Of a stretch of DNA of 64,000 nt, positions 2,104 through 28,511 are shown piece after piece (positions within the stretch are counted from its first letter, which is position 1; every line of letters begins with the position of its first letter). The stretch is from Prevotella sp. (lineage in GTDB: Bacteria > Bacteroidota > Bacteroidia > Bacteroidales > Dysgonomonadaceae). The translations under genes and the position numbers were made by a program. The notes below the pieces were generated by a model. It searched no databases. It worked only from the letters and a program-made list of their open reading frames with translations, and was not told the DNA's origin. The DNA lies in the NCBI GenBank assembly GCA_031285625.1, contig JAITVV010000093.1:62001-126000 (forward strand), written 5' to 3'.

Positions 2104-2166
2104 ATGACAAATTGCTTTTTACATATCCTAAACCTCGTTATTCTCCTCGTCGGTCAGAGTAAATGA
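2104..2166 (+). CDS. ilv operon leader peptide (20 residues)
   Basis: A short ORF lies between the ilv promoter and the attenuator. It reads MTNCFLHILNLVILLVGQSK and stops at TGA (2164-2166). Nine of 20 residues are Leu, Ile or Val, and seven of them fall in codons 9-16, the composition expected of a leader peptide that senses charged tRNA-Leu, -Ile and -Val. Its stop codon lies inside the 5' arm of the antiterminator (2162-2172). A ribosome that finishes the peptide would therefore cover that arm, while one stalled at the Leu/Val codons (2134-2151) would leave it free. No similarity search was possible; the call rests on composition, position and the overlapping RNA structure. Confidence 0.85.
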   Translation: MTNCFLHILNLVILLVGQSK

Positions 2167-2242
2167 GAAAGGTATGTATATTAGTTTGATAATATAAGGA
2201 ATCAATATAGCCTTTCTCATTCGTGGGAAAGGTTTTTTTTTT
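2162..2242 (+). terminator. Transcription attenuator of the ilv operon
   Basis: Two exclusive structures can be drawn. The antiterminator pairs AATGAGAAAGG (2162-2172) with CCTTTCTCATT (2211-2221), 11 bp without mismatch. The terminator pairs CCTTTCTCA (2211-2219) with TGGGAAAGG (2224-2232), nine pairs including one G-U, closed by a TTCG tetraloop (2220-2223) and followed by ten T (2233-2242). Both use 2211-2219. A weaker protector pairing, TTCTC (2141-2145, within the leader Ile-Leu codons) with GAGAA (2165-2169), completes the classical 1:2, 2:3, 3:4 scheme. ilvD begins 15 nt after the T run. Confidence 0.87.
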
Positions 2243-2257
2243 AATAGTTATATCGTT

Positions 2258-4087
2258 ATGGGATTTGAATTAAGAAGTTCGACCAGTACACAAGGTAGGC
2301 GTATGGCCGGAGCCAGAGCTCTTTGGAGAGCTAATGGAATGAAAGAAGAACAAATGGGCAAACCTCTTATTGCCATCGTGAACTCATTTACTCAGTTTGT
2401 TCCCGGGCATGTCCATTTGCATGAGATTGGCCAGAAAGTAAAGGCTGAGATCGAAGCGCTTGGTTGTTTTGCAGCCGAATTTAATACCATAGCCATTGAC
2501 GATGGTATTGCCATGGGGCACGACGGAATGCTGTATTCGCTCCCTTCTCGCGATCTGATTGCCGATAGTGTAGAATATATGGTAAATGCCCACAAAGCCG
2601 ATGCTATGATCTGTATCAGTAATTGCGATAAAATCACTCCAGGCATGCTAATGGCAGCTATGAGGCTGAATATACCTACTATATTTGTTTCAGGTGGGCC
2701 AATGGAAGCGGGTGAACTTGGCGACCAGCACCTAGACCTGATAGATGCAATGACTAAGGCTGCTGATGATACGGTTTCGGATAAAGAAGTAAATGCTATT
2801 GAACGTGCGGCTTGCCCTACTTGCGGCTCTTGTTCCGGTATGTTTACAGCCAATTCGATGAACTGCCTGAATGAAGCAATAGGTCTGGCATTGTCGGGTA
2901 ATGGTACTATTGTAGCTACTCACGCCAACCGTCTTAAACTGTTTCAGGATGCTGCAAAACAGATCGTTGAAAATGCTTACCGTTACTACCGGGATGGAGA
3001 CAAATCTGTGTTACCTCGCAATATTGCTTCCAAAACAGCTTTTCTGAATGCTATGACATTAGATATTGCAATGGGGGGATCTACAAATACAATTCTTCAC
3101 CTCTTAGCTATTGCACAGGAAGGTGAAGTTGATTTTACTATGCAGGATATAGATAAACTTTCCCGCAAAACTCCTTGTCTTTGCAAGGTAGCACCAAATA
3201 CTCAGAAATATCATATTCAGGATGTAAACCGCGCCGGAGGTATTCTGGGCTTAATGAACGAACTGGACAAAGGAAACTTAATCGATACTAGTGTGTCGAG
3301 GGTTGACGGAATGACGCTTTCACAAGCAATTGATAAGTATGATATTACAAAAAGCAATCCGCAGAAAGAAGCAGAAACCCTCTATAAATCGGCTCCCGGA
3401 AATAGATTTAATCTTGTGATGGGATCACAGAATAATTATTATCCGGCTTTGGATATAGACCGGACAGGTGGCTGTATACGTGATATGGAGCATGCATATA
3501 CCAAAGATGGTGGTTTGGCTATCTTGAAAGGCAATATAGCCCTTAATGGTTGTGTTGTGAAAACTGCCGGAGTAGACGAAAGTATTTTCAAATTTTCAGG
3601 AAAAGCTAAAGTATTCCATTCTCAGGAGGATGCGTGCGAGGGTATCTTGAAAGACAAAGTAGTTGCAGGAGATGTAGTGGTAATTATCTATGAAGGTCCT
3701 AAAGGAGGTCCCGGTATGCAGGAAATGCTTTATCCCACTTCTTACATAAAATCAAAACATCTGGGTAAAGAATGTGCTTTGATCACAGATGGACGCTTTT
3801 CAGGTGGGACATCAGGCCTGTCAATAGGCCATGTATCGCCGGAAGCAGCATCAGGTGGAGCTATAGGGCTAATCAAGGATGGTGATATTATTGAAATAGA
3901 TATTCCGAATCGCTCCATCAATGTAAAAATATCCGATACAGAATTAGAAGCCCGTCGTCAGCAAGAATTAGCTAAAGGTAAAGATGCTTTTAAACCTAAC
4001 CGTAACCGTACAGTATCCAAGGCATTACGTGCTTATGCCAGTATGGTTAGTTCAGCCGACTTGGGAGGAATCAGAATTATAGAATAA
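2258..4087 (+). CDS. ilvD: Dihydroxy-acid dehydratase
   Basis: IlvD dehydrates 2,3-dihydroxy-isovalerate and 2,3-dihydroxy-3-methylvalerate to the 2-keto acid precursors of valine and isoleucine, in the cytoplasm. At 609 residues it is full length. The iron-sulfur and metal motifs are visible: [13 protein letters not shown] (about 120-132), [19 protein letters not shown] (about 188-206) and GGSTNT (about 273-278), with the C-terminal [10 protein letters not shown]. It is the first structural gene of the operon; ATG follows the attenuator T run by 15 nt. A 12-nt gap leads to the next gene, so transcription is likely continuous. Confidence 0.98.
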
Positions 4088-4098
4088 ACAGACAAACT

Positions 4099-4638
4099 AT
4101 GCAAGAAAACGAACAAAGTCAAAACTTATCAATAGAAAATATTGATGAAATTGTAGATGAAAGTTTATATTACAGGACTTTCTTTAATAAGGATCCCGAT
4201 TATTATATTGAGCGCTATGAAAAAATTACAGCAGGGCAAAATGTTGTTTTTAATGGTTATGCTTTTTTCTTTGGTTTCCTATGGCTTGCATATCGCAAAA
4301 TGTATGTAGAAATCTTAGCATTGATTGCTATAATGGCTACTATTGACTGTATCTTCATCTTTGCACTTGAGATAGACAATTCGGGTTTGGATAGGGTGAT
4401 CAATATTATTTGGGCAGTTACTATAGGCTGTTTTGCAAACTTGTTCTATATAATGAAAGCAAAACGTACAATACAAAAGGCAAAAGAAGCATATAATAAT
4501 ACAGGAGATCAATTAGATTATATAGAAAAAACTGGAGGTGTTTCTGTTATAGCACCTATTGTGACAGGAATCTTTTTCATTGGATTAATGGTCGGCGGAC
4601 TATTGCTAAGTGAATATGCCGAAAGTTTTTATTACTAA
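4099..4638 (+). CDS. Small membrane protein, DUF2628-like
   Basis: The function is unknown. The 179-residue protein has a polar N-terminus (residues 1-50), then the segment FFFGFLWLAYRKMYVEILALIAIMAT, whose aromatic run followed by YRKM resembles DUF2628-type membrane proteins, and two or three further hydrophobic segments (about 95-113 and 148-172). It lies between ilvD and ilvB with gaps of 11 and 29 nt on the same strand, so it is probably co-transcribed and under the same attenuator. Such a gene is not part of the usual ilv gene set; a later insertion into the operon is likely. Confidence 0.75.
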   Translation: MQENEQSQNLSIENIDEIVDESLYYRTFFNKDPDYYIERYEKITAGQNVVFNGYAFFFGFLWLAYRKMYVEILALIAIMATIDCIFIFALEIDNSGLDRVINIIWAVTIGCFANLFYIMKAKRTIQKAKEAYNNTGDQLDYIEKTGGVSVIAPIVTGIFFIGLMVGGLLLSEYAESFYY

Positions 4639-4667: not shown

Positions 4668-6365
4668 ATGGAAAATAAAACAACAGGACGCGAGGCTCTA
4701 ATCAAGGCATTACTTGATGAAGGTGTTGAAACGATTTTCGGGTACCCGGGTGGTCAGATAATACCTGTATTCGATGCGTTATATGATTATAAAGATAAAA
4801 TCAACCATATTCTCGTCAGGCACGAACAAGGTGCTACACATGCGGCACAAGGATATGCACGCACATCGGGTAAAGTTGGGGTGGCACTTGTGACTTCCGG
4901 TCCTGGGGCTACCAATACGATAACAGGTATAGCTGATGCTATGCTGGATAGTACACCTATTGTTGTAATATCGGGGCAGGTACCTACATCCTTGTTGGGT
5001 AGCGATGCTTTTCAGGAAGCCGATGTTGTGGGCATTACCCAACCTATATCAAAATGGTCTTATCAGATACGTAAGGCCGAGGATATTCCATGGGCCATTG
5101 CAAGGGCTTTCTATATCGCTTCCACAGGCCGCCCCGGTCCAGTAGTTATAGATATTACGAAAGATGCACAAAATGGTTTTTTGGATTATCAGTATAAAAA
5201 AGAAACTTACATTCGTAGCTATCAACCTAAACCTGATGTAAAACCTAATGAGATAGAAACTGCTGCAGAGATAATAAATAATGCAAAGAAACCGTTGGCT
5301 CTGGTAGGACAGGGAGTTATTCTGGGTAGTGCCGAGAAAGAACTATTAGCCTTCCTGGAAAAGGCCGGTATTCCTGCTGCATCTACTGTTCTGGGCCTAT
5401 CGGCAATACCAACCGATCATCCATTACAGATAGGGATGCTGGGTATGCATGGAAATATTGGTCCGAACCTAAAGACAAATGAATGTGATGTACTTATAGG
5501 TATAGGCATGCGTTTCGATGATCGTGTTACCGGAGATCTGAATACTTATGCCAAACAAGCCAAAATAATTCATTTTGACATAGATAAAGCTGAGATAAAT
5601 AAGAATGTACCTGTTACAGCACGCGTACTTGGTGATGTGAAAGAAACTCTGCCAAAAGTAACAGAGTTACTTAAACCTGCTAACCGTCCGGAATGGCTTG
5701 ATGAATTTAAGGCTTGCTACAAGAGGGAGTATGATGCTGTCATTGAAAGTGAGCTATACTCAACATCGGGGCAATTAAAGATGGGTGAGGTCATCAATAA
5801 AGTATCTGAAGCTACTCGGAATAAGGCTGTATTAGTTACAGATGTAGGCCAGCACCAAATGATGGCTGTACGATACTTCAAATATAGTCAGAGCCGTAGT
5901 GTAGTCACCTCCGGAGGATTAGGCACTATGGGATATGGGCTTCCAGCTGCGATTGGCGCTAAATATGGAACGCCTGACCGTACAGTATGTTTGTTTGTAG
6001 GCGATGGTGGCATTCAAATGACAATACAGGAATTAGGTACAATTATGCAATATGATGTAGATGTTAAAATAATCCTGTTGAATAATCATTTTCTGGGAAT
6101 GGTGCGCCAATGGCAAGAACTGTTCTTTAATGAACGCTACTCCGAAACAATAATGAAAAACCCTGATTTTGTAAAAATTGGAGAGGCATATAATATCCCG
6201 TCACGAAAAGTTGAAACCCGGGAAGAACTGGATCAGGCAATTGCGGATATGATTAATCATAAAGGAGCTTTCCTGTTGGATGTACAGGTTGAGACAAAAG
6301 GGATGGTATACCCTATGGTTCCGGCAGGTGCATCTGTGACGAATATATTATTGGGGGATGAGTAA
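4668..6365 (+). CDS. ilvB: Acetolactate synthase, large subunit
   Basis: A thiamine-diphosphate enzyme that condenses two pyruvates to acetolactate, or pyruvate with 2-oxobutyrate to acetohydroxybutyrate. The 565-residue length is standard. The catalytic glutamate lies in VRHEQGATHAAQGYAR (about 50-65), and the ThDP/Mg motif GDGGIQMTIQELGTI (about 446-460) is followed by LLNNHFLGMVRQWQELFF. The small subunit IlvN follows one gene later. The stop codon overlaps the start of the next gene by 8 nt (6358-6365), which suggests translational coupling to the inserted lipoprotein gene. Confidence 0.97.
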   Translation: MENKTTGREALIKALLDEGVETIFGYPGGQIIPVFDALYDYKDKINHILVRHEQGATHAAQGYARTSGKVGVALVTSGPGATNTITGIADAMLDSTPIVVISGQVPTSLLGSDAFQEADVVGITQPISKWSYQIRKAEDIPWAIARAFYIASTGRPGPVVIDITKDAQNGFLDYQYKKETYIRSYQPKPDVKPNEIETAAEIINNAKKPLALVGQGVILGSAEKELLAFLEKAGIPAASTVLGLSAIPTDHPLQIGMLGMHGNIGPNLKTNECDVLIGIGMRFDDRVTGDLNTYAKQAKIIHFDIDKAEINKNVPVTARVLGDVKETLPKVTELLKPANRPEWLDEFKACYKREYDAVIESELYSTSGQLKMGEVINKVSEATRNKAVLVTDVGQHQMMAVRYFKYSQSRSVVTSGGLGTMGYGLPAAIGAKYGTPDRTVCLFVGDGGIQMTIQELGTIMQYDVDVKIILLNNHFLGMVRQWQELFFNERYSETIMKNPDFVKIGEAYNIPSRKVETREELDQAIADMINHKGAFLLDVQVETKGMVYPMVPAGASVTNILLGDE

Positions 6366-6978
6366 ATTGAAATGGTATTGCCTAAGTATAATATTAGTAT
6401 CTTTGTTTTCATCATGTAAACAAAGAGATAATAAAAATTATGCTACCATTTCAGATACTATAAATCAGTTTACAGATACATTGAAGGAAATGCATGTATA
6501 TAAAGTTGCTTCACCGCTTGAAGCAGACGATTTTCCTCAATTTGTATTTAAAAGCGATTATACAGATAAGGGATATAATAGTGACAGCTTAACTAAAATC
6601 GTAATATACAACAAAGGCGTTGTGGTACAGATGTTAGATAATCTACATGCTTTCCCTGGTCAAAATAAAATTTATCTGGAGGATATTAATTTTGACGGAT
6701 ATCCGGACCTTGCTCTTGATACACAATGGTTAGCCCGTGGTGGGATATATAAATATTGGCTTTATAATGCAGACAAAGAAAAGTTTGAGCACACCAATAT
6801 TTTGGATAGCATTTATTATTCATGTGATGATAAGGAAATAGATTATAAAAACAAGACTGTTACCATAACACAACCTAATGGCTATAATTCATATTTAACA
6901 GAAATATATCGCTGGGAAGATAATAAATATTCTTTAGTAGAATCTGGTACATTTGAGATTGATGAAGATGGTGAATAA
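6358..6978 (+). CDS. Hypothetical lipoprotein inside the ilv operon
   Basis: The protein has 206 residues with a lipoprotein signal (lipobox LFSSC, Cys about residue 20), so it is probably anchored in an envelope membrane. The segment DINFDGYPDLALDTQW resembles the calcium-binding FG-GAP/XAC2610-type motif, in which a structure or tool result is described as a field of aspartates. Function unknown. Its ATG lies inside the last codons of ilvB (8-nt overlap, different frame), and ilvN starts 17 nt after its stop. An envelope lipoprotein between the two acetolactate synthase subunit genes is unusual. Confidence 0.8.
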   Translation: MSKLKWYCLSIILVSLFSSCKQRDNKNYATISDTINQFTDTLKEMHVYKVASPLEADDFPQFVFKSDYTDKGYNSDSLTKIVIYNKGVVVQMLDNLHAFPGQNKIYLEDINFDGYPDLALDTQWLARGGIYKYWLYNADKEKFEHTNILDSIYYSCDDKEIDYKNKTVTITQPNGYNSYLTEIYRWEDNKYSLVESGTFEIDEDGE

Positions 6979-6995
6979 CATTAATAAAAAAAATT

Positions 6996-7550
6996 ATGCA
7001 AGATAAAACATTATATACCATAACTATATTTTCTGAAAATACAGTTGGTCTTTTAAGCCAGGTAACGAGTGTATTTGTTCGTCGCCAATTAAACATCGAA
7101 ACTCTTTCTGTTTCTGCTTCGGCGCTGGAAGGAATACATAAATTTACAATCACTGTATTTTGTGACGAAGAGGTTATCAAGAAAGTTGTACTACAGATAG
7201 ATAAACGTGTAGATGTGCTTAAAGCATATTATAATACAAATGAAGAACTTATCCATCAGGAAATTGCTCTTTATAAATTATCTACATCAGATTTCTTAAA
7301 GATAGAATCAGTAGAAGAACTTATAAGAAAGCATAATGCGCGTATACTGGATATCAATGAAAATAGTGTGGTACTTCAAAAAACAGGACATTATCAGGAA
7401 ACGCAAGACTTGTTTGAAGAACTAAGTAAGACAATCGGAGTCCTGCAATTTATACGCTCAGGACGAATTGCAATTACAAAATCTAAAATTGAAAGGTTGA
7501 GTGATATGCTTACTAAGTTGGACGAAAAGCATAAAGGCAGTACAAAGTAA
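6996..7550 (+). CDS. ilvN: Acetolactate synthase, small regulatory subunit
   Basis: The regulatory subunit activates IlvB and confers feedback inhibition by valine. An N-terminal ACT domain is clear (YTITIFSENTVGLLSQVTSVF, then RRQLNIETLSVS, residues 6-40) and is followed by the C-terminal domain of the family (IRSGRIAITKS near 150). At 184 residues it is of the usual size. It is 17 nt downstream of the inserted lipoprotein gene and 174 nt upstream of the thioesterase gene; that gap carries dyad element copy 2 and a possible second promoter, so the operon may be divided here. Confidence 0.95.
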   Translation: MQDKTLYTITIFSENTVGLLSQVTSVFVRRQLNIETLSVSASALEGIHKFTITVFCDEEVIKKVVLQIDKRVDVLKAYYNTNEELIHQEIALYKLSTSDFLKIESVEELIRKHNARILDINENSVVLQKTGHYQETQDLFEELSKTIGVLQFIRSGRIAITKSKIERLSDMLTKLDEKHKGSTK

Positions 7551-7724: not shown

Positions 7725-8462
7725 ATGGTTGCACCTATAGGAAGATACGAATTTACGATCGATGCATACTTAACTGATTTCAGAGGTAAAGCGACATTGC
7801 CGATGATTGGTGGATTTATGCTGCAAGCCGCAACTAAACATGCTGATGAGCGCGGGTTTGGATATTCATCAATGACTTCACAACAACGTGTCTGGGTCTT
7901 GTCCCGTATGGCTATTGAAGTATTCGAATATCCTAAAAATGATACTGTAATGACCATCAATACTTGGATTGTCAGCGTAAACCGCTTATTCACCGAGCGT
8001 CATTTCTCATTTGAGGATAGTGATGGTAACATAATCGGATTTGCCAGATCCTTATGGGCATCCATAGATTTGGAAACCCGTAGACCAACTAATTTGCTGG
8101 AACTATATGGACTATCAGATTATATTCATGCAAATCAAGAATGCCTGATAGAAGGAATGACTAAAATTCCGGCATTGAAGGATAATTATGAACTGGCTTC
8201 TGAGTTTGTTGTAAAATATAGTGATGTAGACATAAACAAGCACCTGAACAGTATGAAATATATTGAACATTTTGTAGATGTATTTGATATCGAAATGTTC
8301 AGAGATAAAGAAATCAAGCGTATCGAGGTTAATTATATTGCAGAAGGGCAATATGGAGCAAAACTCGATATATTGAAAAGGGAAGAAGAAAACTCCAGTT
8401 TTATATTGGAGATGAAAGACGGAGAAACAAATGTTTGTTCTACCCGTATCACATGGAAATAA
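7725..8462 (+). CDS. Acyl-ACP thioesterase (FatA/FatB family)
   Basis: The enzyme releases fatty acids from acyl carrier protein. The 245-residue protein has two hot-dog domains; the catalytic loop is visible in the second, DVDINKHLNSMKYIEH (about 167-182), with the Asn, His and Asn expected in the acyl-ACP thioesterase family. It sits between ilvN and ilvC, which is the common arrangement in Bacteroidales. The context suggests a link between branched-chain keto acids and branched fatty acids, but that is inference. The gene has its own upstream dyad and -7 box and is 47 nt from ilvC. Confidence 0.9.
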   Translation: MVAPIGRYEFTIDAYLTDFRGKATLPMIGGFMLQAATKHADERGFGYSSMTSQQRVWVLSRMAIEVFEYPKNDTVMTINTWIVSVNRLFTERHFSFEDSDGNIIGFARSLWASIDLETRRPTNLLELYGLSDYIHANQECLIEGMTKIPALKDNYELASEFVVKYSDVDINKHLNSMKYIEHFVDVFDIEMFRDKEIKRIEVNYIAEGQYGAKLDILKREEENSSFILEMKDGETNVCSTRITWK

Positions 8463-8509: not shown

Positions 8510-9556
8510 ATGGCAGAAATGAACTTTGGCGGTGTAACAGAGAAAGTAGTTACCCGTGAAGAATTTCCTTTGGAAAAAGCAAGAGAAGTACTAAAAAATG
8601 AAACAATAGCCGTAATCGGTTATGGTGTACAAGGTCCCGGACAGGCATTAAACCTTAGAGATAACGGTTTTAATGTAATCATCGGACAACGCAAAGGTGG
8701 TAAAACCTGGGAAAAAGCTATCGCAGATGGTTGGGTACCTGGTGAAACACTTTTCGACATAGAAGAAGCTGCAGCCAAAGGTACAATCATACAGTATTTA
8801 TTGTCTGATGCTGCTCAGATAGAAGTATGGCCACGTCTTAAACCTCATTTAACTGCAGGAAAAGCTTTGTATTTCTCTCATGGATTTGGTATTACATACA
8901 AAGAACGTACAGGAATCATACCTCCGGCAGATATTGATGTTATCCTTGTGGCTCCTAAAGGATCAGGAACAAGCCTTCGCCGTATGTTCCTTGAAGGTCG
9001 CGGATTAAATTCCAGTTATGCTATATTCCAGGATGCTACAGGCCGTGCATTCGAACGTACAGTATCTTTAGGTATCGGCGTTGGATCAGGATATTTGTTC
9101 GAAACAGATTTCAAACGTGAGGTATATTCCGACCTTACAGGTGAGCGTGGTACATTGATGGGTGCTATCCAAGGTATTTTGCTTGCTCAATATGAAGTAT
9201 TACGCGAAAATGGTCACTCTCCATCAGAAGCCTTCAATGAGACAGTAGAAGAATTAACTCAATCATTGATGCCTTTGTTTGCTGAAAAAGGTATGGACTG
9301 GATGTATGCCAACTGTTCTACTACAGCACAGCGTGGTGCTTTAGACTGGATGACTCCTTTCCACGATGCTACAAAACCGGTTTTTGCTAAACTTTATTCT
9401 GAAGTAGCTAATGGTAATGAAGCACAACGTTCTATCGATACTAATTCAAAACCTGATTATCGCGAAAAACTGGAAGAAGAACTGAAAGCTCTTCGCGAAA
9501 GTGAAATGTGGCGTACAGGTGCAGTTGTAAGAAAACTCAGACCGGAAAACAATTAA
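8510..9556 (+). CDS. ilvC: Ketol-acid reductoisomerase, class I
   Basis: IlvC isomerises and reduces acetolactate and acetohydroxybutyrate using NAD(P)H. Its 348 residues place it in class I. The nucleotide-binding motif AVIGYGVQGPGQALNLRDNG (about 34-53) is followed by the cofactor loop GQRKGGKTW, where the basic residues suggest NADPH preference. The metal-binding region begins with TDFKREVYSDLTGERG. It is the last gene of the operon and is followed by a strong bidirectional terminator at 9578-9607. Confidence 0.98.
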   Translation: MAEMNFGGVTEKVVTREEFPLEKAREVLKNETIAVIGYGVQGPGQALNLRDNGFNVIIGQRKGGKTWEKAIADGWVPGETLFDIEEAAAKGTIIQYLLSDAAQIEVWPRLKPHLTAGKALYFSHGFGITYKERTGIIPPADIDVILVAPKGSGTSLRRMFLEGRGLNSSYAIFQDATGRAFERTVSLGIGVGSGYLFETDFKREVYSDLTGERGTLMGAIQGILLAQYEVLRENGHSPSEAFNETVEELTQSLMPLFAEKGMDWMYANCSTTAQRGALDWMTPFHDATKPVFAKLYSEVANGNEAQRSIDTNSKPDYREKLEEELKALRESEMWRTGAVVRKLRPENN

Positions 9557-28302: not shown

Positions 28303-28376
28303 AGCCTCTTGTCGGATTCGAACCAACGACCCCGAGATTACAAATCACGTGCTCTGGCCAACTGAGCTAAAGAGGC
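28303..28376 (-). tRNA. tRNA-Thr (anticodon TGT)
   Basis: The minus strand folds as a complete cloverleaf: acceptor GCCTCTT pairing with AAGAGGC, D arm with TAGCTCAGTTGGCCAGAGC, anticodon loop TTTGTAA giving anticodon TGT (threonine, ACA codons), and T arm GGTTCGAATCC. The 3' CCA is not encoded, and the discriminator base is T. It lies directly downstream of the probable SRP RNA in the same transcript. Confidence 0.95.
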
Positions 28377-28379
28377 AGG

Positions 28380-28476
28380 TGGGCAAGCTTACTATATCGC
28401 GTCGCTACAACCGACGGCCCTTGCTGCGATCAAACCCTGGGGGATTAATCGGGAGCTGACCGTATAGGACTTACCC
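28380..28476 (-). ncRNA. ffs: Probable signal recognition particle RNA (4.5S type)
   Basis: On the minus strand a transcript of about 97 nt is closed by GGGTAAG pairing with CTTGCCC and by CTATA pairing with TATAG. The apical region has CCCCCAGG, 10 nt, then AGCAAGGG, which matches the conserved SRP symmetric-loop pattern CAGG-N10-AGCA flanked by a C/G stem. A second hairpin, CGTCG-GTTGTAG-CGACG, carries TGTAGC as in the 3' part of E. coli 4.5S RNA. The exact GGAA tetraloop is not present (the loop reads about TGAT), so I hold this at moderate confidence. A perfect promoter lies upstream and tRNA-Thr follows within 4 nt. Confidence 0.7.
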
Positions 28477-28480
28477 GCGA

Positions 28481-28511
28481 CAAAAGTAGATAAATTTTTC
28501 ATATTCACAAA
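28481..28511 (-). promoter_or_regulatory. Strong promoter of the SRP RNA / tRNA-Thr unit
   Basis: On the minus strand TTTG (28511-28508) and TACTTTTG (28488-28481) are separated by exactly 19 bp, a full match to the Bacteroidetes housekeeping promoter. Transcription should start near 28476, at the GGGTAAG that begins the RNA. Confidence 0.85.

Follow-up and report, generated by a model that had tools for sequence, protein, structure and literature searches.

A putative leader-peptide attenuator upstream of the ilv gene cluster in Bacteroidales

The ilv gene cluster and its leader

The window, meaning the whole 64-kb stretch of DNA that was analysed, belongs to a genome of 4.84 Mb and carries near its beginning a cluster of genes for the synthesis of the branched-chain amino acids, in which ilvD, ilvB, ilvN, and ilvC are interspersed with three other genes. 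An earlier reading made from the letters alone (the sequence-only reading) had assigned the host to the Bacteroidales, and rightly so, the closest named relatives of its ilvD among the matches listed being those of Dysgonomonas sp. 521 (93%) and D. mossii (92%). The cluster is composed of the following genes:

2258-4087, + strand: ilvD, dihydroxy-acid dehydratase, first gene of the cluster (NCBIfam NF009103, 1074.6 bits; TIGR00110, 788.5 bits)
4099-4638, + strand: hypothetical protein between ilvD and ilvB, no NCBIfam match
4668-6365, + strand: ilvB, acetolactate synthase large subunit (TIGR00118, 729.4 bits)
6358-6978, + strand: XAC2610-related protein, overlapping the end of ilvB (NF047539, 65.4 bits)
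6996-7550, + strand: ilvN, acetolactate synthase small subunit (TIGR00119, 87.4 bits, over its cut-off)
7725-8462, + strand: acyl thioesterase-like protein (tentative name) between ilvN and ilvC (TIGR00051, 23.5 bits, under its cut-off)
8510-9556, + strand: ilvC, ketol-acid reductoisomerase (TIGR00465, 326.4 bits)

The occurrence of an XAC2610-related gene and a thioesterase-like gene within an ilv cluster is recorded here as a separate observation, as is a Bacteroidales small SRP RNA found directly beside a tRNA gene further along the window (28303-28483, minus strand).

The region ahead of ilvD holds a series of overlapping elements:

2052-2081, + strand: candidate Bacteroidetes-type promoter (TTTG at 2052-2055, an 18-nt spacer, and TAACTTTG at 2074-2081)
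2104-2166, + strand: leader peptide ORF of 20 aa, reading MTNCFLHILNLVILLVGQSK-stop, with its TGA stop at 2164-2166
2120-2125, 2127-2129, and 2134-2139, + strand: predicted protector strand 1 (1:2), inside codons 6-12, from the minimum free energy (MFE) fold
2162-2172, + strand: strand 2 of the antiterminator (2:3), AATGAGAAAGG, with the leader stop codon within it
2170-2178, + strand: 3' part of the predicted protector, AGGTATGTA, partner of strand 1
2211-2221, + strand: strand 3, CCTTTCTCATT, partner of strand 2 or 5' arm of the terminator
2209-2242, + strand: candidate intrinsic terminator (3:4), with 11 pairs, a TTCG loop, and ten T at 2233-2242

This anatomy is read directly from the DNA and largely agrees with what the sequence-only reading had described. 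The 20-residue ORF with nine Leu, Ile, or Val residues lies exactly at 2104-2166, so that codons for the end products of the pathway make up 9 of its 20 and are clustered. The TTTG and TAACTTTG elements fit the Bacteroidetes promoter consensus, in keeping with the promoter proposed earlier, and among 32 leaders from the genus and its near relatives 24 have, just 5' of their ATG, a match to a regular expression for TTTG-N17..21-TAnnTTTG. None of 32 leaders from this same group carries a Shine-Dalgarno (SD)-like GGAG, GAGG, or AGGA within 20 nt 5' of the leader start, and SD-like 4-mers occur in 3 of 121 ilv leaders against 9.8 expected from shuffles. Translation initiation in Bacteroidota is largely SD-independent.

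The stop codon of the ORF falls, as claimed, inside one arm of an 11-bp antiterminator, in which AATGAGAAAGG forms 11 perfect pairs with CCTTTCTCATT, and the latter arm overlaps the 5' half of the terminator exactly as had been reported. All parts of the nine-pair hairpin described there (2211-2219 with 2224-2232, the TTCG loop at 2220-2223, and the ten T) are present; on folding, it grows to 11 pairs (2209-2219 with 2224-2234; -12.9 kcal/mol) and stands as an intrinsic terminator between the leader ORF and ilvD, whose start lies 15 nt past the T run. The leader RNA as a whole folds beyond chance (z = -2.39; 6 of 200 shuffles fold equally well), and the pattern GAGAAAGG-N35..60-CCTTTCTC, which is self-complementary and therefore matches on both strands, has a single site in the whole genome, the ilv leader.

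The one element that did not hold up is the 5-nt protector suggested between 2141-2145 and 2165-2169. These segments are complementary, yet the pairing is absent from the predicted fold, and 7 of 29 aligned rows have CTG in place of CTC, a change in the last base of its 5' side; it was dropped in favour of a longer predicted stem. In the MFE fold, UACAUA and CCU (2120-2125 and 2127-2129) pair with AGGUAUGUA (2170-2178), and a further stem is formed by CUCGUU (2134-2139) and AAUGAG (2162-2167).

Conservation of the leader across Bacteroidales

The ilvD gene was found in 24 of the 25 genomes of the genus that were searched, and the leader lies upstream of it in 24 of 24. The peptide is of the type MTNCFLHxLxLxILLVGxNK, with drift, while strands 2 and 3 are near-invariant, as expected if each of them must satisfy two pairings. 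Beyond the genus, the sequence-only reading had named as a supporting sign that Leu, Ile, and Val codons are kept as the peptide drifts, and this is what is seen: the window has MTNCFLHILNLVILLVGQSK, Parabacteroides distasonis (L154) has MNNVLHIILVVVLLVISR, and Bacteroides fragilis (L191) has MNNHTSINLAVLHIIRVVVIPSRA.

For a broader survey, ilvD upstream regions were collected from the genus, from 85 of the 91 matching genomes of the family, from 57 of 88 order genomes, and from the best 80 of at least 547 named relatives. Removal of regions identical over their last 200 nt left 205 distinct upstreams, nearly all from Bacteroidales and including one paralogue (L025) and one region from a Pseudoflavonifractor record (L210). 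The combination of a short ORF, having L/I/V at seven or more of 12 residues, and a terminator after it is detected in 125 of the 205, compared with 7 of 205 reversed sequences and 8 of 615 dinucleotide shuffles; with the stricter requirement of at least nine L/I/V in 12, the same combination is found in 104 of 205, against 0 of 205 reversed and 0 of 615 shuffled. The ORF was also scored alone over the last 260 nt, in a set of 155 comprising the regions without a detected leuB and the one leuB region that passes. At the threshold of nine, 104 of 155 regions pass, as do none of the 155 reversed and 7 of the 775 shuffled ones; at the threshold of seven, the corresponding counts are 127 of 155, 29 of 155, and 133 of 775. 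Among the 125 passing upstreams, a few (L134, L196, and L207) are probably chance matches.

A natural negative control is provided by the 51 of 205 upstreams in which leuB lies within 450 nt of ilvD, a position that makes ilvD internal to a leu-ilv operon; just 1 of these 51 passes, and they account for 50 of the 80 upstreams that do not. Twenty leuB-type genomes were followed over approximately 8 kb upstream. All have a leader ahead of leuA, of the type MxxxxDILVISILLLExFGG in the 19 detected by script, with that of the twentieth (L265) recognised by inspection; the element is thus placed where the operon begins. A further 30 of the 205 upstreams show neither a detected leader with terminator nor leuB. 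They comprise three incomplete regions, the paralogue L025, some leaders whose terminator was missed (that of B. fragilis, for example, the terminator filter missing short T tracts both there and in L265), and others in which no leader was seen, among them L044, L157, L195, L203, and L216.

Elsewhere in the class, 7 of 20 ilvD upstreams (taken from 41 genomes with a match) pass the same detection. In more distant genomes of the phylum, V/I/L-rich short ORFs, which are candidate leaders, were noted 112-119 nt before the longest-frame start of ilvD at a minimum of 11 of 29 loci (L227, L229, L231, L234, L235, L236, L239, L240, L242, L248, and L249). A separate case is L190, from another member of the Bacteroidia, where in the last 60 nt before ilvD a CCTTTCTC...GAGAAAGG terminator comes straight after a promoter-like stretch and the ORF is reduced to four codons (MTFL), an arrangement that looks like loss of the sensing part. 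Since one leader design recurs across many Bacteroidales relatives, the element is real and widespread, though its kind is well known.

Alternative pairings and the proposed mechanism

Statistical support for the antiterminator was obtained by scoring the 2:3 duplex against 200 shuffles of the strand 2 region. The duplex beats 95% of shuffles in 105 of 125 ilvD leaders, 25 of 40 leuA leaders, and 4 of 7 leaders from other members of the class; after thinning of similar sequences the corresponding counts are 53 of 70, 11 of 13, and 4 of 7, such that 17 of the 70 ilvD representatives fail this test. Because strands 2 and 3 hardly vary within the genus, covariation comes from distant relatives only. 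There, two-sided changes are seen at four pair positions among the 22 registered of 23 gapless duplexes, the changes being given as positions and not as tree events (L280 was left out and L152 stands in the wrong register, neither of which affects the four positions). Examples are GAGAAAGG/CCTTTCTC, AGAATGGT/GCCATTCT, and GAAGAAAGG/CCTTTCTTC. Antiterminator and terminator strands thus change together in distant relatives, and the compensatory stem changes that had been proposed as a check are present. In 79 representatives the 2:3 duplex reaches -10 kcal/mol or better; of these, 56 have a stop codon that overlaps strand 2, 15 have strand 2 after the stop, and 8 have it inside the ORF.

Support for a protector that joins the leader codons to strand 2 comes both from folding and from permutation of codons within each ORF, which keeps the composition of the peptide. 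Over 88 of 90 representatives (two ORFs longer than 32 codons were left out), the mean z is -1.81, 45 fall below -1.64, and in 75 the probability that strand 2 pairs with the ORF exceeds 0.5. Nine 1:2 pairs (2120-2125 and 2127-2129 with 2170-2178) were checked in 22 distinct rows from the genus and its near relatives, and 185 of 198 cells hold standard pairs, compared with 49 and 48 of 198 when the strands are slid by one base in either direction and 117 and 131 of 198 when slid by -2 and +2. These counts were made on anchored segments, as the MAFFT alignment misplaces a codon gap in strand 1, and within the genus the changes in 1:2 pairs are mainly one-sided.

Taken together, this comparative sequence evidence makes the ilv element very probably (roughly 0.93) a transcription attenuator of the classical ribosome-mediated type, which would sense charged Leu, Ile, and Val tRNA and control ilvD. 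Control would probably extend to ilvB, ilvN, and ilvC behind ilvD in a presumed single operon. In the proposed model, RNA polymerase would start near 2087 and a ribosome would translate the leader. When branched-chain amino acids are ample, the ribosome would reach the stop at 2164-2166 and, since this stop lies inside strand 2, would cover that strand, allowing the 3:4 terminator to form and transcription to end near 2242. Under a shortage of Leu, Ile, or Val, the ribosome would stall at codons 8-16, covering strand 1 and leaving strand 2 free to pair with strand 3 (2162-2172 with 2211-2221), which would block the terminator and let the ilv genes be read. With no ribosome on the leader, strand 1 would hold strand 2 in the protector and the terminator would likewise form. 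The ribosome footprints used in this model follow established knowledge of attenuation.

It is conceivable that attenuation is real and acts mainly through translation coupling or Rho, with the intrinsic terminator in a lesser part. The short T tract in B. fragilis and some others would suit such a mechanism, as would the position of the ilvD start so soon after the T run in the window; against it stand the ten T that follow the hairpin here and the presence of a hairpin with a T tract in 125 of 205 ilvD upstreams, and we regard it as very improbable.

Candidate leaders of other operons and known systems

Further candidate leaders precede other amino acid biosynthesis genes in the same genome, as follows:

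leuA: MNLHSNIISSLILLWRNLG, rich in Leu/Ile and followed by a terminator (contig C24, locus L308, 728-787)
hisG: MSNKLHHHHFTLLPLGE, His4 (contig C18, locus L342)
trpB: MNFLLTNTFWWWHSQLEKS, Trp3, inside a Bacteroid-trp (RF01692) match of 51.3 bits (contig C30, locus L328)
pheA: MKNFSYTYFFFFYFYFKR, with FFFFYFYF, Phe4 (contig C35, locus L384)

Across the genus, a leuA leader of this kind is present in 23 of 24 loci, the remaining locus being incomplete, and 16 of 25 hisG loci have four His in eight residues. Bacteroid-trp matches occur in 18 of 25 genomes and exceed the cut-off in 15, although for the trpB leader of this genome the generic script gave no 2:3 duplex (-3.1 kcal/mol) despite the RF01692 match. 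A Phe-rich leader stands before pheA in 22 of 22 loci. By contrast, no Thr/Ile-rich leader was seen before thrA (aspartokinase/homoserine dehydrogenase) in the eight regions examined, out of 21 genomes with the gene, which indicates that not every pathway is controlled in this way. That the residue follows the pathway before leuA, hisG, trpB, and pheA is strong independent support for attenuation.

The same evidence bears on the idea that the short ORF encodes a functional small hydrophobic, perhaps membrane, protein and that the hairpin is merely the terminator of its gene. The peptide is indeed hydrophobic and conserved in the genus, but the peptides of other families share little past their richness in L/I/V, runs of His, Trp, and Phe occupy the same position before hisG, trpB, and pheA, and the alternative pairings would be left without a role. 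Because the leader residues change from one pathway to another, this idea was rejected, and its chances appear minimal.

Sensing by a riboswitch, a T-box, or an RNA-binding protein, with an incidental ORF, would account for the structured nature of the region (z -2.39) but is equally hard to credit. At the gathering score, the sole Rfam 15 matches in the window are those to an SRP RNA and a tRNA, with no T-box or riboswitch, and the ilv leader is matched by no Rfam family, either here or in three relatives (L142, L154, and L191). The best matches at E<=10 are weak (PyrR, 26.9 bits for a cut-off of 54; trpB motif, 24.1 bits for a cut-off of 59), and on these grounds a riboswitch, T-box, or ribosomal-protein leader was rejected; what is conserved across families is the Leu/Ile/Val codons and the alternative strands. 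An origin by chance is rejected by the reversed, shuffled, leuB, and codon-permutation controls.

The attenuator reading of the ilv leader thus concerns a kind of mechanism that is already known, in a phylum where it is not new. Branched-chain and other attenuators were reportedly predicted by Vitreschak et al. in 2004, some of them also in Bacteroidetes/Chlorobi. Weinberg et al. (2010, PMC2864571) list Bacteroid-trp among Bacteroidetes motifs, and Rfam names it the Bacteroidete tryptophan peptide leader RNA (RF01692). Both it and the ilv leader are leader-peptide elements of one phylum, though RF01692 has Trp codons and another sequence; at its cut-off of 49 bits the ilv leader gives no match, and of the nine loci scanned only the trpB leader (L328) does. 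The transcriptome of Flavobacterium psychrophilum, a species of the same phylum, is described as giving strong clues for leader-peptide attenuation upstream of amino acid biosynthesis operons, in a report whose main text does not contain the term "ilv" (PMC9723704), and that of B. thetaiotaomicron includes 5' UTR sORFs reminiscent of leader peptides (PMC7366714). A Bacteroidales leader-peptide attenuator would not be a first for the phylum, given RF01692 and the clues from F. psychrophilum. No paper on a Bacteroidales ilv leader was found in the literature searched, which was mostly that of openly accessible journals.

With the candidates before ilvD, leuA, hisG, trpB, and pheA in view, we lean towards the view that Bacteroidia in general use leader-peptide attenuation as a default way to control their amino acid biosynthesis, with an ilv leader that is old in Bacteroidales and stands before whichever gene heads the operon. 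If this is true, then, given that the ilv leaders start without an SD-like motif, tight coupling of transcription and translation would work in a phylum with largely SD-independent initiation. Since attenuation of the classical type depends on a ribosome that follows RNA polymerase closely, an attenuator that works would allow such coupling to be tested directly in Bacteroidota. For Bacteroides, Parabacteroides, and Dysgonomonas, on which the literature consulted offers mostly hints, it would provide a specific mechanism of branched-chain amino acid sensing that can be put to the test, and the Bacteroidales leaders, whose short ORFs are easily overlooked by annotation, could become an Rfam-type family.

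The classical ilv/leu attenuators are those of Proteobacteria, exemplified by E. coli ilvGMEDA and leuABCD. Unlike these, the Bacteroidales leader has no match to an Rfam model, lacks an SD-like motif, is preceded by a candidate Bacteroidetes-type promoter, and in most representatives (56 of 79) places its stop codon within strand 2. In common with them, it encodes a peptide rich in the residues of its pathway, combines mutually exclusive protector, antiterminator, and terminator pairings, and heads the cognate operon.
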